From contig NZ_WJIE01000022.1 of NCBI RefSeq assembly GCF_009649845.1, positions 1-64,000 on the forward strand: a stretch of 64,000 nt of DNA, written 5' to 3'. Position numbers and translations under genes: made by a program. The notes beneath the pieces are model-generated. The model had not been told where the DNA came from. It ran no database searches and was given only the letters and a program-made list of their open reading frames with translations. This DNA comes from Polyangium spumosum. GTDB lineage: Bacteria; Myxococcota_A; Polyangia; Polyangiales; Polyangiaceae. Of the stretch, positions 41,442 to 56,770 are shown piece after piece (the first letter of the stretch is position 1; each line of letters begins with the position of its first letter).

Positions 41442-41867
41442 ATGCAACGGATGAGGCTTGGCTTCGTGGGGATCGTCGCGCTCGTGTTCGCGGGGCTCGG
41501 GGCTTGTGGCGGCAAGGTCGTGATCGACGCCGAGGGCAACGGCGGCGACGATGGCGTGGGCGGCGCGGGCGCGGGCGGTGCGGGTGGCGTGGGCGCGGGC
41601 GAGCCCATGACGACGTCGGTGAGCGTCGGGGGATCCGTGACCTGCAACGGCCCGATCCTCAGCGGCAATGACGACTCCTGCCAGCTCGTGGCCGAGTGCA
41701 GCAACGGCAGCACCTTGAACACGGCTTGTTTTCCGACCAGCGACAGCACCGCGTCCTGCAAGTGCAGCGTCGACGGCGTGTCGGTCGGCTCGTGCACGGG
41801 CGCGAACTCGTCCGGCGCCCCGGCCTGCTCGGCCACCGAGGGCTGCTGCGCGCAGTTCTTCTTCTAG
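41442..41867 (+). CDS. Small cysteine-rich lipoprotein
   Basis: 141 aa from the ATG at 41442. Signal peptide with lipobox GLGAC, then a Gly/Ala/Val spacer of about 30 residues. The mature domain has ten cysteines (CNGP, CQLVAEC, ACFP, CKCS, SCTG, ACS, CCAQ), pointing to a small disulfide-bonded surface domain. Convergent with the HPr-kinase-like gene: the four bases CTAG at 41864-41867 hold the TAG stop codons of both genes. Function unknown. Confidence 0.72.
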   Translation: MQRMRLGFVGIVALVFAGLGACGGKVVIDAEGNGGDDGVGGAGAGGAGGVGAGEPMTTSVSVGGSVTCNGPILSGNDDSCQLVAECSNGSTLNTACFPTSDSTASCKCSVDGVSVGSCTGANSSGAPACSATEGCCAQFFF

Positions 41868-42844
41868 AACACCGCCTCCACGCGCGCAGGGAGTGTCGCG
41901 GGATCCGCGAGCAGATCGCGCCCCATGCGCAGCTCGAAGTGGCGCGCGCCGTTCGTGATCCGCGCGAGCAGGGCGAGGTGCTCCGTTTTTCGGGGCACGT
42001 CGTCGATGACCAGGCCGCCGCTCGACGCGACGAGGTTGCCGAGGGCCTCGGCCTTCACGAGCGGCGTGAGCGTGGTCGGCTCATCGGGCTCGATACGCGG
42101 GTGCAGGACGAGGCGCGGGGCCGCGGCGGTGGGCAGGGATTGGCCGGGGAAAGCGCCTCTCGGGTCGAGGTCGCGTTTGTCACCGTGCGCCTTCGTGGGG
42201 CCTGCGAGGGCGGCGAGGCGCGGGAAGGCGGCGAGCGTCGCGGGGCCCAGGTGGAACGGGCGCGGGAAGGCGCAGAGGCGCGGGCCTGCCGGGCCGTCTT
42301 CGAGCAGGAGCGCGTCGTCGCCGAGGAAGCCGTACCCCGCGGACGCGAGCGTGATCGTGGTCGTCGTCTTGCCCGCGCCCGCGCCCCCGACGACGAGCAC
42401 GGCGTCGCCGTGCGCAGGCCGGACGAGGGCCGCGGCGTGCAGGTGGAAGAGGCCGACGTCGCGCAGGGCGAGCGAGAGCGCGATCTCGAGGGACGCGCGG
42501 GCCGAGCCAAAAACGAGCTCCTCGGCGGCGAGCAGAGCCTCGATACGCGCGGCGCCGCGGGGGACGAGGATGCGGCTTTTGCGATCCCAGAGCAGGAACG
42601 TCGGCGGCGCGCCCGCGGGCTCGCGGTAGGCCTGCACGACGCCGTGGAAAAACGAGGGGCGGAACCCCTCGGCGGCGGGATCCGAGGCGAAGGGTCCTTC
42701 CGCGCGGCGGAGGATGATCTCGATACGCCCGCGGCCTTCGGCGTGTCCGATCCCCTCGGCGAGGCCGAGGGACGTGACGAGATCGGGCGCGCCGTCCTCC
42801 GTGGTCCAGGCGAGCGTCGCGCCGTGTAGCGCCGCGGTCTTCAT
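41864..42844 (-). CDS. HPr-kinase-like P-loop protein of the RiPP cassette
   Basis: 326 aa. The C-terminal half is an HPr kinase/phosphorylase-type P-loop domain: Walker A GGAGAGKT (153-160), LHAAAL before it, GDDALL (175-180) as the acidic motif and LVVHP-type LVLHPRI later. The N-terminal 130 residues are the extra domain found in homologues from lasso-peptide loci, where the kinase phosphorylates the peptide C-terminal residue (paeninodin type) or acts in an unclear way. Last gene of the minus-strand run starting at 44820, 6 nt after PqqD. Its presence without HPr strongly favours a peptide-modifying role. Confidence 0.8.
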   Translation of the reverse strand: MKTAALHGATLAWTTEDGAPDLVTSLGLAEGIGHAEGRGRIEIILRRAEGPFASDPAAEGFRPSFFHGVVQAYREPAGAPPTFLLWDRKSRILVPRGAARIEALLAAEELVFGSARASLEIALSLALRDVGLFHLHAAALVRPAHGDAVLVVGGAGAGKTTTTITLASAGYGFLGDDALLLEDGPAGPRLCAFPRPFHLGPATLAAFPRLAALAGPTKAHGDKRDLDPRGAFPGQSLPTAAAPRLVLHPRIEPDEPTTLTPLVKAEALGNLVASSGGLVIDDVPRKTEHLALLARITNGARHFELRMGRDLLADPATLPARVEAVF

Positions 42845-42850
42845 CGGGCG

Positions 42851-43129
42851 TCAGGCGGGCAGGACGAGGCCGTCTTCGAGCATCTCGCCGAGCACGTTGT
42901 CGACGTCGCGCGCCGCGGTCTCGTGATCGACGCGGAAGAGCTTGGTGATCCGCTCGGCGATGGCGCTCGGGCCAGAGGTGGGCTCGGCGAGGGACTTCCA
43001 GACGATCACGGCAGATGGGTTCAGCGTGAAATAGAACTTCGTGTCGAGGTGCAAGAGCACGCCCGTGCCGTCGTCGAGCTCGGTGAAGAGCACCTGGGGA
43101 TTCGGCCTGGGCAGGCGCGGCTCGGTCAC
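42851..43129 (-). CDS. PqqD-family RiPP recognition element
   Basis: 92 aa from a GTG at 43129, chosen because AGGAG precedes it and because GTGA overlaps the upstream stop by 4 nt. The winged-helix PqqD fold is visible: VLFTELDDGTGVLLHLDTKFYFTLNPSAVIVWK in pieces, then a helix with ITKLFRVDHETAARDVDNVL and a short C-terminal strand. PqqD/B1 proteins bind the leader peptide of a RiPP precursor and present it to the enzymes. Sits between the B2 peptidase and the kinase. Confidence 0.9.
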   Translation of the reverse strand: MTEPRLPRPNPQVLFTELDDGTGVLLHLDTKFYFTLNPSAVIVWKSLAEPTSGPSAIAERITKLFRVDHETAARDVDNVLGEMLEDGLVLPA

Positions 43130-43545
43130 GCGGTGGGCTCCTTGGGGGTTGTACAGGGGTAGGCGTACGTCACGACGAGGTCCGGATCCAGCTCTTCGCC
43201 GTACGGCGCGCCGTCGAGCTCGACCCACGCGTGCCCCTCGATCTCGCCCGGGCGCGACAGGCCCATCACGAAACGAGCCGCGTGCCCGGCGCGGCGCAGG
43301 AGCGAGAAACGCGCGAGCGAGCGGTAGAAGCAGGTGTCGGGCACGAACGGCAAGTGATGGGTGAGCGCGTCCGCCCGCGCGAGCGCCTCGTCGATCACGT
43401 CGAGCGGCGCGGGCTCGATCGTGCCTCGCGAGAGGGCGTCGAGCAGCGCGGGCAGGCTCGATCGCCGGGCCCGCGCGGGTAACGACAAGCGCAAGGCGAG
43501 CGCGCTCGCGGCGAGGCGCAGGCGCTTTCCGAGGGGCGCGGGCAT
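43126..43545 (-). CDS. B2-type transglutaminase-like leader peptidase
   Basis: 139 aa from the ATG at 43545, which overlaps the radical SAM stop by one base (TGATG). It matches lasso-peptide B2 proteins: FVPDTCFYRSLARFSLLRR with the nucleophile Cys72, GHAWVELDG with His105 and a following acidic residue, and a closing YPCTTPKEP tail. These enzymes cut the leader off the precursor using a Cys-His-Asp triad. Small size is normal for split B2 proteins that work with a separate PqqD-type B1 domain, encoded next with a 4-nt overlap. Confidence 0.88.
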   Translation of the reverse strand: MPAPLGKRLRLAASALALRLSLPARARRSSLPALLDALSRGTIEPAPLDVIDEALARADALTHHLPFVPDTCFYRSLARFSLLRRAGHAARFVMGLSRPGEIEGHAWVELDGAPYGEELDPDLVVTYAYPCTTPKEPTA

Positions 43546-44600
43546 CAGCGCACGACGGGCAAGACGACCTTCTTCGCCCACGCGCCGCGCCACCGCTCCC
43601 GCTGCGCCTCCGGGCCGCGGGCGCCCTCGTCCGTCCAGTGGGGTTTGTCGAAGTGCTTCATGCACCAGTTGCAGGGGAAATGGTCCCACGTGCCGAGCGA
43701 GCCCTCGGCCATGGCGGCGAGCTTGGCCGCCTGCGTCTCGTGGATGATGCCGAGCAAGCGGCGGTGCGCCTCGAGCAGGCTCGTCGTCGTGAGGTCGGCG
43801 GCGACGTCGCGCGCGGGGCCCTCGCTCGGCACGCCTGCGTGCTGGCAGCAGAGGTTCAGCCGGCCCTCGACGTCGACGTGGAGCAGCTCGCTCTTCATGG
43901 GCTCGCAGACGTGGAACGGCTGCTCGCGGTAGAAGCCCTCGGGCATCGTGACCGGCAAGGTGAGCACGGCGGCGAGGCGCTCGACGCGGTGCTGGGCGTT
44001 TTGCCAGGCGCGTGGCGGCAGGGCGAGCGCCTCGTCGTGGTGCGTGCCCGTCGCTTGCAGCATGGAGAACGAGGCGCGCGTGGCGCCGAGCTCGGCGGCC
44101 ATGAGGCCGAAGGCCTCGATCTGGTGCACGTTGCGCGCGTTCAGCACCATCTGGAGCACGAACGGGATGCCGTGCGCGGCGCAGAGGGTGACGGCCTTCA
44201 TGACGTCGCGGAAGCTGCCTTTGCCGCGGATCGTGTCGTGTGTGGCCTCGTCGGCGCCGTCGAGGCTCAGGTTGACGGCGGTGAGCCGCGCGCGCCGCGC
44301 CGGGTCGTCGTGCACGAGGCCGAGGAGCTGCTCGAAGCGCCTGCCGTTCGTGACGACGTGCCAGGTGAAGTCGTGCTCCACGATCGCGTCGAGCACGCCC
44401 TCGAGCTCGGGGTGCAGCGTGGGTTCGCCGCCGGTGAGCGCGACCTGCTTGGTGCTGTAGAGCCGCCGCGCCTCGCCGAGGACCTTGCGGATCGTCGCGA
44501 GTGAGAGGTCCTTCGGCTTCTGGCCGGGATCACGCAGGCAATGCTGGCAGTCGAGCTGGCAGCGGTCCGTGAGGTGAAAGGCGATCCACGTGACGGCCAT
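43545..44600 (-). CDS. Radical SAM enzyme of the RiPP cassette
   Basis: 351 aa. The 4Fe-4S site is CQLDCQHC (C14, C18, C21), followed by the SAM-binding TGGEPTLHPE and a TIM-barrel of usual length. C-terminal cysteines (HVCEPMKSE, LCCQHAG, CNWCMKH) could bind auxiliary clusters as in SPASM/twitch enzymes, which install carbon-carbon, thioether or other bonds in peptides. It starts 37 nt after the precursor gene and its stop is coupled to B2. The peptide is the most likely substrate. Confidence 0.88.
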   Translation of the reverse strand: MAVTWIAFHLTDRCQLDCQHCLRDPGQKPKDLSLATIRKVLGEARRLYSTKQVALTGGEPTLHPELEGVLDAIVEHDFTWHVVTNGRRFEQLLGLVHDDPARRARLTAVNLSLDGADEATHDTIRGKGSFRDVMKAVTLCAAHGIPFVLQMVLNARNVHQIEAFGLMAAELGATRASFSMLQATGTHHDEALALPPRAWQNAQHRVERLAAVLTLPVTMPEGFYREQPFHVCEPMKSELLHVDVEGRLNLCCQHAGVPSEGPARDVAADLTTTSLLEAHRRLLGIIHETQAAKLAAMAEGSLGTWDHFPCNWCMKHFDKPHWTDEGARGPEAQRERWRGAWAKKVVLPVVR

Positions 44601-44637
44601 GGCGGGATGGGGACTCCGGGGCGGGCGCGGGGGGCGC

Positions 44638-44820
44638 CTACCCCATGATGGTGACGCCGGTCATGGCCGGGCCCATCGGCGTGAAGAGCGTCGCGCGGGC
44701 CACGGAGCGCTTCTTCGTGAGGCGCGGCGGCTCGTAGGGCTTGCGCGTGTCCTCGGCCTCGGCGCCCTGCGTGAGCTGCTCGCCTTCGAGCTCGGCGCTC
44801 CTGTCTTTGATGTCGGCCAT
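44638..44820 (-). CDS. RiPP precursor peptide with lasso-like leader motif
   Basis: 60 aa. A strong AGGAGGAG ribosome site precedes the ATG at 44820. The leader is acidic (residues 1-25), then comes PYEPPRL (28-34), matching the YxxPxL motif that PqqD-type recognition elements bind in lasso leaders, followed by TKKRSVARAT. The rest (about residues 45-60, LFTPMGPAMTGVTIMG) is a likely core: hydrophobic, Met/Gly/Thr/Pro-rich, with no Asp, Glu or Cys. A lasso ring needs an Asp/Glu acceptor, so this core cannot form a classic lasso. Boundaries of leader and core are inferred. Confidence 0.75.
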   Translation of the reverse strand: MADIKDRSAELEGEQLTQGAEAEDTRKPYEPPRLTKKRSVARATLFTPMGPAMTGVTIMG

Positions 44821-44894
44821 ACGCGTCGTTCTCCTCCTGCCAGCGTACCACAACGGGAGCGCCGAGACTTCGTTGCGTCCGCGCGTCGCGCCAT

Positions 44895-45743
44895 TCAGGC
44901 CCGGAGCGGCGCGAGCAGGGCGTGCGGGTAGGGGCCCTCCTCGAAGAGCGCGACCTCGTAGCCGGCCTCGAACGCGGCGCGTGGGATCTCGTCGGGCGAG
45001 AGATACGAGAAGAATCCACCATCCGGGAAGAACTGGTCCCCCGGCTCGCTGCGGCCGGGCGCGCCCATCGTCGTGAAGGCGCGCCGGAGCGCGTCGCGCA
45101 GGCGGCCCTTGGTCTCGGTCTTCGCCTCGGTGTCGTGTCGGAGCTGGAAGCTCGTGAGCACGACGGCGCGTGGCGCGAGCGTGCGGACGGCGCGGAGGAG
45201 GCCGAGGCGCGCGGAGGCGGGCAGGACGTGCGAGAGGCTGCCCCAGCCGAGGATGACGGCGTCGAAGGAGGGAGGCTCGGCGAGCGAGGCGAGCGCGCCG
45301 CCGCGGCCTTCGGAGGCGGCGACGAGGTCGTCGTAGGAGCCGAGGAGGATCTTTGCTCGGCGATTCTGGACGAGCGCACGAGCGCTCTCGACGAAGTCGA
45401 CGCAGGGGTCGAAGGCGGTGACGGAGTAGCCACGATCGAGCAGGGCGACGACCTCGCGACCCGCGCCGGCGGCGCCGACGAGGACGCGGCCTTCACGAGG
45501 AAAGGCGGGGGCGTCGAGGGCGCGCTTCTCCCAGGTGAAGAGGCCACTCTCGAAGCGATGTCCGCCGGGGAGGTAGGTGCGCTGGCGGGCGTAAAGCGCG
45601 GCGGTGAGGGCGGCGCGATCGGTTTCGGGGATCCAGGCGAGGAGGAGCTCGTCGCGTAAGCCTTCCCGCGCGGTGGCGAGGCGGTGCGCGAGGCGATCGG
45701 CCGCGAGGAGGGCGCGGACCCAGGAGGGGATGCGGTAGGGCAC
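44895..45743 (-). CDS. Class I SAM-dependent methyltransferase
   Basis: 282 aa from a GTG at 45743. The Rossmann motif I is VLVGAAGAGREVVALLDRGY, motif II has VTAFDPCVDFV, and a GWGSLSHVL block matches motif IV. Same strand and 74 nt upstream of the precursor gene, so it could be the first gene of the RiPP transcript and methylate the peptide, but no ribosome-site or overlap evidence ties it firmly to the cassette. The N-terminal 80 residues are helical and not recognised. Confidence 0.7.
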   Translation of the reverse strand: MPYRIPSWVRALLAADRLAHRLATAREGLRDELLLAWIPETDRAALTAALYARQRTYLPGGHRFESGLFTWEKRALDAPAFPREGRVLVGAAGAGREVVALLDRGYSVTAFDPCVDFVESARALVQNRRAKILLGSYDDLVAASEGRGGALASLAEPPSFDAVILGWGSLSHVLPASARLGLLRAVRTLAPRAVVLTSFQLRHDTEAKTETKGRLRDALRRAFTTMGAPGRSEPGDQFFPDGGFFSYLSPDEIPRAAFEAGYEVALFEEGPYPHALLAPLRA

Positions 45744-45764: not shown

Positions 45765-45940
45765 GGGGTGGTGCTCGTGGGTTCGGGTTCGAGCTCTTCG
45801 GCCGGTTCGTTCTTGGCTTTCCGGCTCTCCTCGATCACGGGAAAGCGCTTGTCCTGCTGCGCCCCGAGCGCCTCGGTCACGGCCTGGATGTCATTCCCCG
45901 CGGGAGCGGTCTCCAGAGGGAGCAGAAATTCGACGATTGT
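45765..45940 (-). pseudogene. Coding remnant next to array C
   Basis: Minus-strand frame with strongly coding third positions over about 58 codons: TIVEFLLPLETAPAGND, then IQAVTEALGAQQDKRFPV and EELEPEPTSTTPAG. It has no start or ribosome site, emerges directly from array C at its 5' side, and has no stop at a natural place: the frame runs on into the methyltransferase gene. It looks like the C-terminal piece of a gene that lost its front to the array and its stop to a frameshift. Family unknown. Confidence 0.35.
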
Positions 45941-46220
45941 CGTGGGGAGCGTGGGTGGACGTGCGTCAGGGGAGGCTCCTCGTCGTGGGGAGCGAAGGTG
46001 GATGGGCGTCAGGAGAGGCTCCTCGTCGTGGGGAGCGTGGGTGGACGTGCGTCAGGGGAGGCTCCTCGTCGTGGGGAGCGGGGGTGGACGGGCGTCCGGG
46101 GGCGCTGCTCGTTGTGGGGAGCGGGGGTGGATGGGCGTCCGGGGTGGCTCCTCGTTGTGAGGAGCGGGGGTTGACGGTCGTCGGGGGGCGCTCCTCGGGG
46201 TGAGGAGCGTGGGTGGATGG
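45941..46220. repeat. Tandem array C: six full copies plus a partial of a 43-bp unit
   Basis: Units start at 45941, 45984, 46027, 46070, 46113 and 46156, with a partial at 46199, every 43 bp exactly. Each has CGTGGGGAGCGTGGGTGGAC at its left and a GAGGCTCCTC-type self-complementary end in the better-preserved copies. The plus strand is G-rich with runs of 3-5 G. No spacers. Sequence differs from array B although period and copy number are the same. It fills most of the gap before the ATPase-HNH operon. Confidence 0.9.
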
Positions 46221-46313
46221 GTGGCGTGGGGCCAGGTGAGGCGTGGGGCCGAACTTTCTTGGCCCCGCTCTGCGGTCGGGTGGCAGAATCACGCCGATGG
46301 ACGACTGTCTACG

Positions 46314-50697: not shown

Positions 50698-52059
50698 CTA
50701 GATGCCGTCACACACCAGCACGCAGCTCTTCGCGCCCATGGCGTCGGCCACGCACTTGCCCTCGACACATTCGTTCGTCGTGTCGCACGCCGCGCCGATC
50801 ACCTTTTGCGGCGCGCACGTGCCGGCCGCGCAATAGAGCGACTCCGCGCACGTGTCCGTGCAGGGGGCGCCCACGCCGGGCAGCGCCGCGCACGTGCCCA
50901 TCGGCTGGCCTGACGGCTCGTTGCAATATTTGCTCGCGCATTGCCCGTGATCCGTGCAGCTCTGGCCGTCGGCGACGAGGCCGACGAGGGCGCCCTCGCA
51001 ATCCAGGCCGCTCTGGTCCTTCGCCGATTCTTCACACGTGAGCGCCTCGTACGCCTGCGCGCAGGACGCGAGCTTCTCGGGGTCGACGGAGACGCGGCCC
51101 TCGGCGACGTCGTTGTGGATGCTCACGAGCCGGACGCCGAGGAAGGCGCCCGTGAGGAGGCGGCACTCGGCCTCGGTGTCGAACAAGGAGTCCATGCGCT
51201 CTTGCTCCGTGCAACACGCGAACGTCCGCTTGCACCCCGCGATGACGTAGGCCGCGCCCACGGTCTCGAGCGCGGCGTCGATGCTGCCGGGCCCAGGGCC
51301 GCCGCCCTGGCAAACCGTGGCGCACGTCCCCATGCCGTTCTCCAGGGCGCAGGTGCCGTTCTGGCAATGGTTGTTGCTCGTGCAAGCCTGGCCGTCGGGC
51401 TTCTTCTGCGCGCACGTGTCGGTGGGGCCGTCGCAATAGAGGCCCTCGGCGCAATCGTCATTGCCGGCGCAGGCCGCGCCCTCGGCCGCGGGGGCGGGGG
51501 CGTCGACGCAGGTGCCCATGGTCGCGCCGTCCGGGACCTCGCACGCCTTGGTCTTGCATTCGAAGTCGTGCGCGCACGCGCCGCCCTTCTCGACCTTGGC
51601 GATGATGAAATCGTCGCAGCCCGCCGAGAGGCTCGTCGCGAAGTCGTTGCAGCTCTGCCCCTTCAGCGCGTCGAGGCAGGAGGCGAACGCGGCCTCGTCG
51701 AACGTGGCGCGCCCGCTCGCCTCCGACTCCTTCACCGTGGGCTCGTAGCCGCCTTCCCAGAACGTGCGATAGAGGATCCGGCAGCCCGCGTAGTCGACGA
51801 TGCCCGAATTGCCGACGCGGGCCACGAGGTCCTGGGCGTTGCAGCACTCGAAGAGCTTGCCGCAGACGGCGTCGACGTACTGCGCGCCCTGGCTCGATCC
51901 GCCGCCGCTGCCGCCGCTGCCGCCGCTTCCGCCGCTTCCGCCGTTGCCTCCGCCTCCCGTCGTTTTCGGGTCGTCCCCGTCGTCGCAAGCCACGCCCGCG
52001 AGCCCGAGGACGACGGCGAGAGCCCCGGTCGCAATGCGCTTCGTGATGTGCTGGATCAT
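50698..52059 (-). CDS. Large cysteine-rich lipoprotein with Dickkopf-like repeats
   Basis: 453 aa. GGAGG stands 9 nt before the ATG at 52059. Lipobox AGVAC, then a GGSGG spacer. Repeated disulfide modules follow, with spacing such as CAGNDDCAEGLYCDGPTDTC, CTSNNHCQNGTC and CTDHGQCASKYC, which resemble Dickkopf-type cysteine-rich domains seen in many myxobacterial surface proteins; a duplicated helical half (DAVCGKLFECC and IAGCKRTFACC) precedes each set, so the protein is an internal duplication. Ligand unknown. Encoded 61 nt after the nucleotidyltransferase-like gene on the same strand. Confidence 0.8.
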   Translation of the reverse strand: MIQHITKRIATGALAVVLGLAGVACDDGDDPKTTGGGGNGGSGGSGGSGGSGGGSSQGAQYVDAVCGKLFECCNAQDLVARVGNSGIVDYAGCRILYRTFWEGGYEPTVKESEASGRATFDEAAFASCLDALKGQSCNDFATSLSAGCDDFIIAKVEKGGACAHDFECKTKACEVPDGATMGTCVDAPAPAAEGAACAGNDDCAEGLYCDGPTDTCAQKKPDGQACTSNNHCQNGTCALENGMGTCATVCQGGGPGPGSIDAALETVGAAYVIAGCKRTFACCTEQERMDSLFDTEAECRLLTGAFLGVRLVSIHNDVAEGRVSVDPEKLASCAQAYEALTCEESAKDQSGLDCEGALVGLVADGQSCTDHGQCASKYCNEPSGQPMGTCAALPGVGAPCTDTCAESLYCAAGTCAPQKVIGAACDTTNECVEGKCVADAMGAKSCVLVCDGI

Positions 52060-52120
52060 GGTGGAGAACCTCCGGCGCCGAGGATCACTCGACCGCGCAC
52101 GGGCGTCGAGCGTCGCCTCG

Positions 52121-53029: not shown

Positions 53030-54669
53030 GCGGAGAGGCGGAGCACGTGTTTCTCGAAGCCGAGCACGGCGGGATCGTGGATCGCGGCGATGACGCGGCG
53101 ACGCTCGGCGAGGCGGCGGAGCAGGGCGGCGAGCTCGGCGACGCTCGTGGCGTCGAGGTGCGCTTCGGGCTCGTCGAGGACGACGAGGTCGGCCTCGCGC
53201 ACGAGCGCCCGCGCGAGCATCACCCGACGCGCTTGCCCACGCGAGAGCGAGCCGAGGCGCAAGGCGAGCGCCGCCACGTCGGAGCCGGCGCGGGCGCGGA
53301 GCGAGGCCCAGAGCCCGACCTCGTCGAGCGCAGAGGCGAGGCGAGCGTCGGGCGCGTCCGCGTCGAAGGCGCGGAGGAAGGCGGCGATCGTCGCGTCGGG
53401 TGGCTCGAAGGGCTCCTGCGAGACGAACGCGACGCGATCGCCGAACCAAGCGCGGCGCTCCGGCGCCTCGCCGCCGACGAGGACACGCCCCTCGTCCGGA
53501 CGAACGAGCCCGAGCAGGAGGTAGAGCAGCGTCGTCTTGCCCGCGCCGTTCGGGCCAAGCACGGCGAGGCTCTCGCCCTTCGGCAGCACGAGCGAGACGC
53601 CACGGAGCGCGCGGGTGCGCTCCGCCCCGGCCGCGTCGTCCCGCGGAGGATAGGTGTAGGCGACGTCCTCGACGCGGATCTCGGCGCGTGGATCGAGCGC
53701 GTGTCCCTCGGCGTCTGCCCTCGCGGCAGGCCCGTCCGCCGCGCCCCTCGCGAGCATGTCGCCGAGCGATACGAGCTCCCCGCGCGCGTGGACGAAATTG
53801 CCGAGGCCCGCGATCGTCATCTGGAGCGTGGGGATCGCCGCCAGCACGAGCAGCAGCGAGCGGTGCACGTCGCGCCCCTCGCCCGCCTGAAACGCCGTCG
53901 CGCCGAGCAGCTCGGCCGCGCCGAGGGCCGCGGCGACCGTCGCGAGCAGCGCGCCCCAGCCCGCGACGGCGCTCGTGGCGCGGGCGCGGAGCTCGGCCGA
54001 GGACCACGCGGCGACCTCGGCGCGGAGCTCGTCCACGAAGGCCCGCGCGCGACCATGCGCGACGAGCTCGGCCGCGCCGGAGAAGCCCGCCGAGGCCCGC
54101 GCGAGCAGGAGGCGTGATCGATCGAAGACGAGCGACCAAGCCGCCTCCACGCGTGACGCGCCGAGCATCGTGACGAGCCCGCCCGCGAGGGCCGCGCAGG
54201 CGAGCGGCGCGAGCGCCGAGGCCCCGAGCGCGGAGACGAGCAGCGCGGTCACGGCAGGCACGGCGACGAGGCCGGCGAGCAGGATGGCCACGCCCTCGAC
54301 GGCCCAGCTCACGAGCACCGGCAGCGCCGTGGAGAGGCGCGCGGAGGTGATCGCCGGCGGCGGCATCCCGACGACCGCGCCGCGCTCGAGGGGCGCGACG
54401 AAGAGGTCGACGAGGCGCAGGCGCACCTCGCGGGCGAGGGCGTCGGCGGCCCGCGCGCGGACGAAGCTCAACGCGGCGGCGGCCGCGAGCAGGACGAGGG
54501 CGTCGCGGGGGCCGCGGTCGCCGAGCCAGAGGGCCGCGAGCGGCAGGGCCACGCGTTGCGCGCACGCGGCGGCCGCGACGAGCACGAGGCTCGGCCCGGC
54601 CCCGCGGAGCAGCACGCGCGCGGGGTGAGGTCGGGACGGTCGCGGGGGGATGGGGGCCTCGTGCGGCAC
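53026..54669 (-). CDS. ABC exporter (fused permease and ATPase)
   Basis: 547 aa from a GTG at 54669. The N-terminal half has six predicted membrane helices, very Ala/Leu-rich and degenerate in sequence. The nucleotide-binding domain has Walker A GPNGAGKTT (about 372-380), a Q-loop SQEP, signature LSRGQARR (in place of LSGGQ), Walker B LVVLDEPEAHLD and an IHDPAV switch region (His kept). Half-size homodimeric exporter architecture, as for bacteriocin and RiPP export. Coupled to the nucleotidyltransferase-like gene, forming a minimal pair without a precursor beside it. Confidence 0.85.
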   Translation of the reverse strand: MPHEAPIPPRPSRPHPARVLLRGAGPSLVLVAAAACAQRVALPLAALWLGDRGPRDALVLLAAAAALSFVRARAADALAREVRLRLVDLFVAPLERGAVVGMPPPAITSARLSTALPVLVSWAVEGVAILLAGLVAVPAVTALLVSALGASALAPLACAALAGGLVTMLGASRVEAAWSLVFDRSRLLLARASAGFSGAAELVAHGRARAFVDELRAEVAAWSSAELRARATSAVAGWGALLATVAAALGAAELLGATAFQAGEGRDVHRSLLLVLAAIPTLQMTIAGLGNFVHARGELVSLGDMLARGAADGPAARADAEGHALDPRAEIRVEDVAYTYPPRDDAAGAERTRALRGVSLVLPKGESLAVLGPNGAGKTTLLYLLLGLVRPDEGRVLVGGEAPERRAWFGDRVAFVSQEPFEPPDATIAAFLRAFDADAPDARLASALDEVGLWASLRARAGSDVAALALRLGSLSRGQARRVMLARALVREADLVVLDEPEAHLDATSVAELAALLRRLAERRRVIAAIHDPAVLGFEKHVLRLSA

Positions 54670-54790
54670 TTGCGTGGGGACGTCCGCGGGCGAGCTCGAC
54701 CATGAACTTCACCCGCAGGCGCCTCGGCTTGATAGCATCGGCGCGGCCGCCGCGGGGGACGCCCGCGCGCGCCCTCCCGCGAGCACCCCG

Positions 54791-56770
54791 ATGTCGACCA
54801 ACCGATCCGCGCTCCGCTCGTCGCCGCTCTTCCCTGGCCGTCGCCCTGGCCGCGCACGGGCGCTGTCGCTGCTCTCGGCGCTCGCGTGGGCGGGCCTCTC
54901 CTTCGTGGCCTGCAGCCGCACCGGCATCGGCACGCCGCCGGAGGAGTCCGCCGCGGGCCCCGGCGGCGCAGGGGGGCAGGGCGGCGTCGGCGGTGTGGGT
55001 GGTGTCGGCGGCGTGGGTGGCGTGGGTGGCGTCGGCGGCGCGGGCGGCTCCGAGCCGTGTGTCGTGCCTCAAGATTGCGTCGACGCCGACCCCTGCACGA
55101 CCGACACCTGCGTGGGCGGCGTCTGTCAGAACGGGCCCCGCGACGACGACGAGGACGGCTTTCCCCCGCTCGCCTGTGGCGGCGGGGATTGCAACGACCT
55201 GAACCCCAAGGTGTTCCCGGGCAGCCCCGAGGTATGCACCGACGCGGCCGACAACGACTGCAACGGCGTCGCCGACTGCGCGGATCCCGCCTGCCAGAAC
55301 GCGCCCACCTGCGGCTGCGTCCCCTCGCCGGGCGGCGAGGCCTGCGCGAACGGCGTGGACGACGACTGCGACACGATCGTCGATTGCTTCGACAGCGATT
55401 GCGCGGGCACGCCGGCGTGCGGCTGCAAGCCGAGCGAGGGGCTCGATTGTGACAACGGGTTCGACGACGACTGCGACGGCAGCATCGACTGCGCCGATCC
55501 GGACTGCTTCGGCTCCACCGCCTGCTCGTGCCAGGCGAAGGCCGAGCTCTGCGACAACAAGGCCGACGAGGACTGTGATCTGCTCGTCGACTGCGCCGAT
55601 CCCGATTGTTTCGGCGTCTTCCCTTGCGCCTGCCAGCCGCCGGGTTCGCCCGAGGTCTGCACGGGCGGCGTCGACGAGGACTGCGACAAGCTCGTCGACT
55701 GCGCCGACCCGAGCTGCTTCGTCTCGCCGGCCTGCCAGACGTGCACGGCCGAGGTCTGCGACGACGGCAAGGACAACAACTGCGACAACAAGATCGACTG
55801 CGCCGATCCGGCGTGTTTCTTCGCGCCGAACTGCGCGCCCAAGCCCGAGGTCTGCAACAACGGGCTCGACGACGACAACGACACGCTCGTCGATTGCCAG
55901 GATCCCGACTGCGCGAACAACCCGATCTGCGTGCTCCAGCAGGCGAACTGCCTCTCGCCGAAGCTCATCCCGGGCACGGGGACGTACACGGGCGACACGA
56001 CGGGCAACGTGAGCGAGACGAAGGGCGTCTGCGGCGGGGACGCGGGCGAGGCCGTGTTCTATTTCGTGCTGAACCAGCCGTCGCGGGTCTACCTCGACTC
56101 CATCGGGACGAGCTTCGACTCGGTGCTCTACGTGCGCACGGGCAAGTGCAACTCGGGCAAGGAGATCGGCTGCGACGACGACAGCGCGGGCGTCACCTGG
56201 TCGGCGAAGCTCGAGTTCACGCTGCTCTATCCGGGCACGTATTACGTGTTCCTCGACGGATACACGATCGACCCGGAGCTCGGCGCGAACGAGGGGCCCT
56301 TCGTGCTCAACGTGGAGATCGAGCCGAACCCCAAGGAGAAGTGCGACGACGGGAAGGACAACGACGGCGACGTCTACGTCGATTGCGCCGATCCGGATTG
56401 CACGAGCGTCGGGTTCTGCGCGACGTGCCTCGGGGGCGGGCCCGGCAAGCCCGAGTTCGGCACGGCCGCCTGCAAGAACGGCCTCGACGACGATTGCGAC
56501 GGGACCGTCGACTGCGCCGACGACGACTGCAGCGCGAGCGATTATTACGTGACCGAGTGCTGCGACGGCGTCGACGAGAACGGCAACGGGATCCCCGACG
56601 ACTTCAACTGCCGCTGCGCCTCGGACGCCGACTGCCCCGGCGGGCAGGTCTGCTACACCCACACCGCGTTCGCCTGCGGCATCCCCTGCACGCAGTACTT
56701 CGGCGACGTCTGCCCGTTCGTCGCCGCCGGTTCATATTGTAATTCCGCGACAAACCAATGCGAGTTCTGA
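54791..56770 (+). CDS. MopE-like lipoprotein with repeated Cys/Asp metal-binding motifs
   Basis: 659 aa from the ATG at 54791. Signal with lipobox SFVAC, GGVGG-type spacer, then roughly a dozen copies of a motif with the form C.DG.DNDCDG.VDCADPDC (for example ANGVDDDCDTIVDCFDSDC and DNKADEDCDLLVDCADPDC), related to the putative metal-binding motif of MopE-type proteins. A beta-sandwich resembling a pre-peptidase C-terminal domain is inserted near residues 400-520 (VFYFVLNQPSRVYLDS). Each motif offers several Asp and Cys, so calcium or copper binding is plausible. Surface-exposed. Divergent from the ABC exporter. Confidence 0.85.
   Translation: MSTNRSALRSSPLFPGRRPGRARALSLLSALAWAGLSFVACSRTGIGTPPEESAAGPGGAGGQGGVGGVGGVGGVGGVGGVGGAGGSEPCVVPQDCVDADPCTTDTCVGGVCQNGPRDDDEDGFPPLACGGGDCNDLNPKVFPGSPEVCTDAADNDCNGVADCADPACQNAPTCGCVPSPGGEACANGVDDDCDTIVDCFDSDCAGTPACGCKPSEGLDCDNGFDDDCDGSIDCADPDCFGSTACSCQAKAELCDNKADEDCDLLVDCADPDCFGVFPCACQPPGSPEVCTGGVDEDCDKLVDCADPSCFVSPACQTCTAEVCDDGKDNNCDNKIDCADPACFFAPNCAPKPEVCNNGLDDDNDTLVDCQDPDCANNPICVLQQANCLSPKLIPGTGTYTGDTTGNVSETKGVCGGDAGEAVFYFVLNQPSRVYLDSIGTSFDSVLYVRTGKCNSGKEIGCDDDSAGVTWSAKLEFTLLYPGTYYVFLDGYTIDPELGANEGPFVLNVEIEPNPKEKCDDGKDNDGDVYVDCADPDCTSVGFCATCLGGGPGKPEFGTAACKNGLDDDCDGTVDCADDDCSASDYYVTECCDGVDENGNGIPDDFNCRCASDADCPGGQVCYTHTAFACGIPCTQYFGDVCPFVAAGSYCNSATNQCEF

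Follow-up and report, generated by a model that had tools for sequence, protein, structure and literature searches.

Phosphorylated lasso peptides, such as paeninodin, pseudomycoidin and Bsf of Bradymonas, are associated with a discrete RRE, a B2 leader peptidase, an HprK-like kinase, an NTP transferase and an ABC exporter, and lasso leaders carry a YxxPxL motif at positions -17 to -12 and, in most cases, Thr at -2 (PMC10368454, PMC9266682). Linear polyphosphorylated peptides (LPP), described from Bacillota and characterized by a polyphosphorylated core Ser, combine an RRE, an HprK-like kinase, an NTP transferase and an ABC exporter with a YxxP leader and have no cyclase (Popov et al., 2026; PMC13381572); in the main text of that paper, the term ‘radical SAM’ does not occur. 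Lasso-type RREs have been linked to radical SAM (rSAM) enzymes: about 300 proteins retrieved with the discrete lasso RRE model of RRE-Finder co-occur with such enzymes and are counted there as false positives, the words ‘HPr’ and ‘kinase’ being absent from its main text (PMC7470986). In the open-licence PMC literature, we found no description of a cassette combining an rSAM enzyme, B2 and HprK.

Here, we describe such a cassette in a window of 64,000 nucleotides (the whole stretch of DNA analysed) from contig NZ_WJIE01000022.1 of Polyangium spumosum. It is probably a RiPP cluster that draws on the leader-handling machinery of phosphorylated lasso peptides and has the rSAM enzyme where these have the lasso macrolactam cyclase. 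The most fitting reading is that of a third branch, next to lasso peptides and LPP, with a putatively twitch-type rSAM enzyme in the cyclase's place. The gene set is found again in genomes of relatives, and this recurrence suggests a peptide family not yet described. Gene content, conservation, the lack of a cyclase gene nearby, leader spacing, catalytic residues and predicted folds were all computed here; from these, we infer that the product is a different kind of peptide from a lasso peptide. The first-pass annotation of this DNA had likened the locus to lasso peptides; more precisely, among described systems, phosphorylated lasso peptides come nearest to it, together with the cyclase-less LPP (PMC13381572).

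Organization of the locus and its precursor peptides

The genes discussed below are the following:

45743-44895, minus strand: methyltransferase (MT), Class I-like, with sub-cut-off matches to Pfam methyltransferase models
44820-44638, minus strand: precursor peptide of 60 aa with lasso-leader spacing, located upstream of the rSAM gene in relatives
44600-43545, minus strand: radical SAM enzyme (rSAM) of 351 aa, PF04055, with a CX3CX2C motif
43545-43126, minus strand: B2 leader peptidase, a transglutaminase-like cysteine protease (NF033537), with Cys72 and His105
43129-42851, minus strand: PqqD-type discrete RRE (B1-like), PF05402
42844-41864, minus strand: HprK/PEPCK-fold kinase-like protein, assigned on weak sequence matches, the predicted fold and a kept His-Lys-Asp-Asp set
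54669-53026, minus strand: ABC exporter of 547 aa (PF00005), first half of the split cluster
53029-52121, minus strand: NTP_transf_5 protein of 302 aa (PF14907)

The minus-strand run from the MT to the kinase-like gene (45743-41864), proposed in the first-pass annotation, is borne out by the reading frames, as are its couplings: the rSAM stop and the B2 ATG have one A in common (TGATG), and the GTG start of PqqD overlaps the B2 stop (GTGA). The gene content given for the run was exact but incomplete, in that the exporter and NTP_transf_5 genes, the latter starting within the end of the former (ATGA), had been missed. In the window, this pair is separated from the cassette by a gap of 6.4 kb that contains a Septu defence pair; in two relatives, both genes are contiguous with the cassette, and the window exporter (PF00005, 97.4 bits) is 51-53% identical to the cassette-contiguous exporters of these genomes (G008 and G043, the latter with an rSAM reading frame split in two). 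The NTP_transf_5 protein matches PF14907 at 81.9 bits (cut-off 31.2), and this domain is present in 23 of the 25 related genomes that encode the rSAM enzyme. The MT, which bears a weak likeness to daptide methyltransferases (38.5 bits, cut-off 175), is an accessory gene that is present at 12 of 25 further loci.

The leader of the window precursor is predicted to end in YEPPRLTKKRSVARATL and to be followed by the core FTPMGPAMTGVTIMG. The lasso-leader YxxPxL motif claimed for it is present with the spacing given in PMC10368454, that is, Tyr-17 to Leu-12 and Thr-2, and this spacing (Y-17xxP-14xL-12 ... T-2) is kept in the precursors of relatives, but with Leu-1 at the leader end. Position -2 is occupied by Thr in 21 of 26 precursors and by Val or Ala in five, counts that are limited by a leader pattern permitting only T, A or V at -2 and L at -1. 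Relatives of the precursor were found upstream of the rSAM gene in 24 of 25 wide loci; the leader pattern occurs within 400 nt upstream of it in 26 of 27 loci, where the precursor adjoins the rSAM gene, and at only one other place in the 460 kb translated in six frames, which is above chance, the pattern having been derived from these very precursors and several of the 27 loci being near-copies.

The cores range from 9 to 30 residues, differ widely in sequence between genera and lack Cys in most of them. They usually start with a hydrophobic residue followed by Ser or Thr, with Ser/Thr at core position 2 in 24 of the 26 precursors. The earlier observation that the core provides no acid for a lasso ring is true of the window, which has no Asp or Glu at positions 7-9, and of 23 of the 26 precursors (three have one), and none of the 26 has Gly at core position 1. 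Lasso precursors of the same relatives have the leader in common, but their cores begin with Gly, Ala or Ser and carry the ring acid. Compared with phosphorylated lasso peptides, the cassette precursors are set apart by the hydrophobic start of the core, by the rarity of an acid at core positions 7-9 and by Leu-1.

The locus could also be, in essence, an LPP-kind linear phosphopeptide pathway, with phosphorylation at core position 2 defining the class and the rSAM enzyme as mere decoration of one lineage. The prevalence of Ser/Thr at this position would suit such a pathway, as would the presence here of the RRE, HprK-like kinase, NTP transferase and ABC exporter of the likewise cyclase-less LPP; yet we regard it as unlikely. 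LPP employ an SpI-like (signal peptidase I) peptidase and a leader of the form YxxPxVLxHQxIxFETxxS (PMC13381572), whereas the cassette encodes B2 and the rSAM enzyme, and the window leader does not match that form; no SpI-like leader peptidase was detected by a Pfam scan among the proteins of the cassette and the gap. LPP were described from Bacillota, in contrast to the occurrence of the cassette in Myxococcota and Nitrospirota. Furthermore, the rSAM gene adjoins the precursor almost invariably, and one locus (L041), which is without B2, PqqD and kinase, retains just these two genes.

The radical SAM enzyme and the leader-handling proteins

The rSAM enzyme matches PF04055 at 81.2 bits (cut-off 29.5) and contains, besides the cysteines of the CX3CX2C motif (C14, C18 and C21), C232, C251, C252, C310 and C313, all of which are invariant (21 of 21 sequences in one alignment and 19 of 19 in another). 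Its predicted model (pLDDT 87.9) has a peptide-maturase fold across residues 1-326 and resembles SuiB (Z 26.0, 3.3 A, 295 residues), SkfB (Z 23.7) and EpeE (Z 18.5), SPASM/twitch enzymes that also carry CX3CX2C, at an identity of only 13-18%. Unlike in these enzymes, no fused RRE is seen in the fold match, and the substrate cores are mostly devoid of Cys. No SPASM match was obtained with Pfam; the invariant C232-X18-C251 and C310-X2-C313 pairs, with the fold aligned through residue 326, would fit a single, twitch-type auxiliary Fe-S cluster.

None of the curated rSAM models scored above its cut-off with the window enzyme, the best ones including mycofactocin MftC (88.8 bits) and PqqE (75.5 bits). 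Since PQQ- and mycofactocin-type pathways likewise involve a small precursor, PqqD and a protease, a redox cofactor of this type might come to mind. This is very improbable and was rejected, considering that both scores fall far below the respective cut-offs (265 and 381) and that the cores vary too widely between genera, in length as in sequence, for one fixed cofactor structure, with no invariant core dipeptide seen. A kinase, an NTP_transf_5 protein and an exporter are not known to be part of the PQQ and mycofactocin pathways, which also counts against a cofactor. A viperin-like rSAM enzyme was rejected as well, the best pVip model aligning over 166 residues with 62 bits and the surrounding genes being those of a RiPP cluster.

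B2 is recognized by PF13471 (58 bits, cut-off 26) and by the lasso_biosyn_B2 model NF033537 (53.6 bits, cut-off 33), and its catalytic Cys and His are kept in 28 of 28 sequences; a PDB sequence search with B2 returned chance-level matches only. PqqD matches PF05402 at 53.8 bits (cut-off 23.4), its best NCBIfam model being lasso_PqqD_Strm at 53.9 bits, under the cut-off of 70. The HPr-kinase-like identity assigned earlier holds, although by sequence the protein stays under every curated cut-off (HprK_rel_A, 35.7 of 200): its AlphaFold model (pLDDT 91.7) has a PEPCK/HprK fold, similar to PEPCK 1j3b (Z 15.2, 4.1 A, 269 residues) and HprK/P 1knx (Z 12.8, 2.5 A, 133 residues), and the His-Lys-Asp-Asp set is conserved (H136 and D176 in 31/31 sequences, K159 and D177 in 30/31).

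Distribution of the cassette and of the lasso cyclase

With a threshold of E<=1e-40, the rSAM enzyme was found in 25 of 193 related genomes. B2 is present in all 25, as opposed to 47 of the 168 others (p 9e-13, the genomes not being independent), as one copy per genome, with an extra weak, sub-cut-off match in three. B2, PqqD and kinase lie near the rSAM gene in 23 of 25 further loci, and also in a Nitrospira locus (L072), which supports the earlier proposal that lasso leader-processing machinery has been joined to rSAM chemistry. In the B2 tree, 25 of 26 rSAM-type sequences (25 myxobacterial rows) form one clade (support 96/90), and in the kinase tree those from rSAM and cyclase settings separate cleanly (100/100; 29 versus 18 rows). 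Homologous clusters lacking the rSAM gene had been named as potential counter-evidence: 25 of the 27 B2 proteins of the clade are accompanied by it, but two that nest inside the clade and lie near contig ends (G082 and G110) are not, a search of both assemblies with the rSAM alignment having yielded no close rSAM and generic rSAM matches only (65 and 78 bits).

In contrast to phosphorylated lasso peptides, the cassette has an rSAM gene and no macrolactam cyclase gene nearby, as initially noted. When the 25 rSAM genomes were all searched with PF00733 (Asn_synthase; E<=1e-3), no match lay on the window's contig and none within 9 kb of any of the 26 rSAM places, 10 of which lie less than 9 kb from a contig end on at least one side. 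Distances were computed by script for matches down to E 6e-17, and the 34 weaker rows, inspected by eye, include none within 39 kb of the rSAM gene on its contig. In the Nitrospira genome, going by the lengths of the contigs or the positions of the matches, PF00733 matches fall on contigs other than that of L072 (17,011 bases), and tblastn for Asn_synthase in 46 loci of the set gave no match beyond the two source regions. A cyclase encoded elsewhere and conserved with the locus, which had also been suggested as counter-evidence, was not found in the 25 rSAM genomes.

A degraded or split lasso cluster served by a cyclase elsewhere in the genome might be invoked, given that P. spumosum encodes two Asn_synthase-domain proteins, both on other contigs, and that lasso-type clusters are common among its relatives. 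We find this scarcely credible: in the same-genus genomes G004 (on 2 contigs) and G005, Asn_synthase matches are weak and partial (best E 5.6e-9 and 1.5e-5), none being full-length; most cores lack the ring acid and in none is Gly the first residue; the 25 rSAM genomes encode only one B2 each above cut-off; and the kinase lineages are distinct. A lasso peptide with a distant cyclase was rejected on the PF00733 searches described above.

Among 34 relatives that have B2 but not this rSAM enzyme, a cyclase-type gene lies near B2 in at least 24, a count that includes G047, detected by a custom two-sequence profile (E 1.2e-5), and G031, with an AsnB-like match 2.6 kb away that may not be a lasso cyclase. 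As for the other ten, five are on contigs of <=5.6 kb (G145, G007, G132, G091 and G110), the B2 of two is not confirmed by the B2 profile (G142 and G109), two show neither PqqD nor a kinase within the stretch examined (G050 and G028; 10.0 and 15.9 kb), and one is G082, with its rSAM-type-clade B2 and no close rSAM. A third, cyclase-less PqqD-B2-kinase type (L179, L181, L183 and L185) was rejected, since Pfam identified divergent Asn_synthase proteins at E 1e-13 to 1e-16, weaker than the E<=1e-20 cut. Close relatives hold both lasso and rSAM versions, making the modularity of RiPP pathways testable side by side.

Proposed pathway and relation to other systems

In the pathway that we propose, PqqD would bind the 60-residue precursor at its YxxPxL leader, presenting it to the enzymes. 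The rSAM enzyme would alter the short core using SAM and one auxiliary Fe-S cluster, and the HprK-fold kinase would phosphorylate core residue 2, a conserved Ser/Thr. This phosphate might then receive a sugar or nucleotide cap from NTP_transf_5, in line with what is reported for PsmK/PsmN. The MT may methylate the product in some species. B2 would cleave after Thr-2/Leu-1, and the ABC exporter would release a short, probably not lasso-knotted peptide, in the window derived from the predicted core given above. The core of the window lacks Cys and has Phe1 as its sole aromatic residue; hence, judging from sequence, epimerisation or other H-abstraction chemistry appears likelier for its rSAM enzyme than thioether formation.

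A more far-reaching and tentative reading, possible rather than probable, is that of a distinct RiPP class of Myxococcota and Nitrospirota, in which a very short core receives a new backbone modification from one rSAM enzyme that acts via a lasso-type RRE. Its H-atom donor, were it to act as a D-amino-acid epimerase, could be Cys252, an invariant residue next to a presumed ligand of the auxiliary cluster, and the altered linear peptide, phosphorylated on Ser/Thr2 and capped with a sugar or nucleotide, would be freed by B2 and exported.

Returning to the probable reading, in which the rSAM enzyme fills the cyclase slot, the leader-handling module (RRE, B2, kinase, NTP transferase and exporter) looks like an evolutionary plug-in unit, partnered by a cyclase in lasso peptides, by neither in LPP and by an rSAM enzyme here. 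The cassette defines an enzyme family with a recognizable substrate signature. It could also account for some of the rSAM-linked ‘false positives’ encountered when lasso RREs are searched for.

SynChlorMet (NCBIfam ScmC-ScmF), for which no paper was found by name in the open-licence PMC literature, is related in combining rSAM, PqqD and HprK-like proteins. The window proteins are far from reaching its cut-offs (rSAM against ScmF, 87.4 bits, and ScmE, 71.6, cut-off 400 each; ScmD, 22.4 of 100; ScmC, 10.4 of 125), and SynChlorMet comprises two rSAM models, ScmE and ScmF, whereas the cassette has one rSAM enzyme and B2.

Gene content and extent of the cluster

The cassette is encoded on the minus strand, and its reading frames bear out the coupled run with TGATG and GTGA overlaps described in the first-pass annotation. 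The radical SAM enzyme (rSAM), B2 leader peptidase and PqqD, a discrete RRE, recognized there all exceed Pfam/NCBIfam cut-offs. The HPr-kinase-like identity of the last gene product is upheld by the PEPCK/HprK fold of its model and its conserved catalytic residues, although every sequence cut-off is missed; the His-Lys-Asp-Asp set, corresponding to the residues named for lasso kinases (excerpt of PMC9266682), is kept in 30–31 of 31 aligned proteins. The cluster is larger than the six-gene cassette, adding an exporter and an NTP_transf_5 protein on the same strand.

Genes of the cluster, with the basis of assignment
45743-44895, minus: methyltransferase (reading frame)
44820-44638, minus: precursor, 60-aa peptide (reading frame)
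44600-43545, minus: radical SAM enzyme (Pfam/NCBIfam, above cut-off)
43545-43126, minus: B2 (Pfam/NCBIfam, above cut-off)
43129-42851, minus: PqqD (Pfam/NCBIfam, above cut-off)
42844-41864, minus: kinase-like protein (PEPCK/HprK fold of model; sequence below all cut-offs)
54669-53026, minus: exporter (on the strand of the cassette)
53029-52121, minus: NTP_transf_5 protein (on the strand of the cassette)

The order ABC–NTP–methyltransferase–precursor–rSAM–B2–PqqD–kinase is uninterrupted in two related genomes, G008 and G043, the latter with one additional 479-aa gene ahead of the precursor. Within the genus of the window the two halves are apart, with gaps of 6.4 kb in the window, 11.3 kb in G004 (stretch L140) and ~15 kb in G001, and with the exporter/NTP half on other contigs than the cassette in G002, G003 and G005. 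PF14907 is present in 23 of the 25 rSAM genomes, in 17/25 on the contig of the rSAM and at most 16 kb away (manual count), and ABC-family ORFs group in 16/25 loci, a family-level result that does not imply orthology.

Between the halves lies a Septu anti-phage pair (46200-47627 and 47579-48235, both plus strand; PADLOC scores of 518.9 bits for PtuA and 160.3 bits for PtuB); nothing in the G004 stretch matches this pair or the window's other gap-filling genes. A minisatellite (45939-46221; 43-bp unit, 6.6 copies, 85% matches) is located just upstream of the methyltransferase gene. The exporter/NTP half is flanked by Cys-rich, secreted-looking proteins (50698-52068, minus; 54650-56770, plus), with motif matches to Dickkopf_N (below cut-off) and Cu-binding_MopE (over cut-off).

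Conservation of the cassette and absence of a lasso cyclase

The rSAM occurs in 25 of the 193 genomes compared, own genome included, and in 13 of 93 genera (E<=1e-40). Wide stretches were examined around 25 further rSAM places from 24 genomes, and profile scans detected B2, PqqD and the kinase beside the rSAM in 23 of them; this is the co-occurrence for which the first-pass annotation suggested a genome search. The exceptions are L041, a second copy in G038 consisting of rSAM and precursor alone, and L053, where the rSAM is at a contig end and B2 is on another contig, adjoining NTP_transf_5. The methyltransferase is present in 12 of the 25.

The reported lack of an asparagine-synthetase-like cyclase also holds: across the 25 rSAM genomes, none of the 26 rSAM places has a PF00733 match (E<=1e-3) closer than 9 kb, a contig end being <9 kb away on at least one side in 10 of these places. 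The nearest matches, both strong, are 9.2 kb (G151; E 7e-97) and 11 kb (G131; E 8e-74) away. B2 matches were obtained in 72/193 genomes (57 over cut-off), and the 34 genomes with over-cut-off B2 and without this rSAM served as a positive control. There, PF00733 (E<=1e-20) lies within 3 kb of B2 in 19, a cyclase candidate ~5 kb from B2 in G047, and divergent family members adjoin the kinase in four more, giving a cyclase-type gene near B2 in at least 24/34. No locus among the stretches scanned combines the rSAM with a cyclase-type gene.

In the kinase tree, a single branch (100/100) separates 29 rSAM-type rows, Nitrospirota included, from 18 lasso-type rows, the rows having been collected with a profile built from rSAM-type members and the root being for drawing only. 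In the B2 tree, all rSAM-type rows but one (25/26) fall into a single clade (96/90), and the exception, from Nitrospira, is unplaced. Among the matches listed in a genome-collection scan (best 80 of at least 516 related stretches), Nitrospira L072 carries rSAM, B2, PqqD and kinase, all four, and Nitrospiraceae L073 carries rSAM, kinase and PqqD; their candidate precursors, picked by eye, are FVRPVLTRHATLPAVTA/AFFGTFRPK and YIEPKLTKQGNATNITF/SAPFSPIPN.

In 8/25 loci (L035-L040, L042, L043; e.g. L037:6264-7724), the gene for a protein of 445-494 aa whose N-terminus resembles that of a lipoprotein lies next to the precursor gene; the five scanned gave no Pfam match over cut-off and one weak NIDO match. 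Near the cassette, L047, L048, L051 and related loci encode a large PD40 beta-propeller-repeat protein, which could be a partner of the peptide or its target.

Precursor peptides and the radical SAM enzyme

The lasso-leader YxxPxL motif claimed for the precursor is indeed there, as YEPPRL at -17 to -12, assuming cleavage after Thr-2/Leu-1, a spacing matching that of Bsf, the phosphorylated lasso peptide of Bradymonas (excerpt of PMC10368454). In 26/27 loci, six of the 27 being from one genus, the pattern Y..P.[LIVT].{9}[TAV]L occurs in the 400 nt preceding the rSAM, and it recurs once elsewhere in 460 kb; in L058 a candidate precursor is ~2 kb upstream. Position -2 is Thr in 21/26, Val in 3 and Ala in 2, Leu-1 and T/A/V-2 being true by construction since the pattern was drawn from these precursors. 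Core 2 is Ser/Thr in 24/26; the first core residue is never Gly and in 23/26 is a Phe, Leu, Val, Ile or Ala; Asp/Glu occupies core 7-9 in 3/26. In a search restricted to the canonical lasso form (Gly/Ala/Ser at position 1, an acid at 7-9), the lasso-type loci of the relatives yielded 21 such precursors in 20/24 loci. Judged by sequence, the two types share a leader grammar, whereas their cores differ.

Eight rSAM cysteines (14, 18, 21, 232, 251, 252, 310 and 313) are invariant in 21/21 sequences and in a second alignment (19/19) reaching down to 30% identity. Residues 1-326 of the model (pLDDT 87.9) align with known rSAM folds, the match starting at residue 104 in SuiB (Z 26.0; 295 residues at 3.3 A) and at residue 99 in SkfB (Z 23.7); further matches are anSME, with Z 23.5, and EpeE, with Z 18.5. 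The N-terminal parts of SuiB and SkfB lack a counterpart, which fits the discrete PqqD. The spacings C232-X18-C251 and C310-X2-C313 would be suited to a single auxiliary cluster, that is, a twitch domain (sense of PMC9012708, excerpt), leaving Cys252 as an extra residue. A critical Cys is used by peptide epimerases, and two clusters are present in EpeE (excerpt of PMC8326336); on this basis, epimerization may be entertained, purely as a hypothesis. The G043 rSAM gene (L043:7834-8897) reads in two overlapping frames and is therefore broken or mis-assembled there.

Proposed pathway and relation to known systems

Most likely, the RRE would bind the precursor, which would then be modified by the rSAM, phosphorylated at Ser/Thr2 and capped by NTP_transf_5, comparable to PsmK/PsmN (PMC9266682), before B2 removes the leader and the product is exported. 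Phosphorylated lasso peptides have everything except the cyclase in common with this cluster; linear polyphosphorylated peptides, a cyclase-less family, share the RRE, kinase, NTP transferase and exporter but differ in the protease and rSAM (PMC13381572). The RRE-Finder study noted ~300 lasso-type RREs adjoining rSAM enzymes as false positives (excerpt of PMC7470986). The pairing has thus been glimpsed before, whereas no description of the rSAM, B2 and HprK cassette was found among the open-licence PMC papers searched. Once its product is known, the cassette could plausibly be recognized as a new RiPP class. A poribacterial relative (L071:5305-10148) resembles SynChlorMet: it has two rSAM genes, a kinase and PqqD, along with two small peptides that carry Gly/Cys-rich repeats at their ends.
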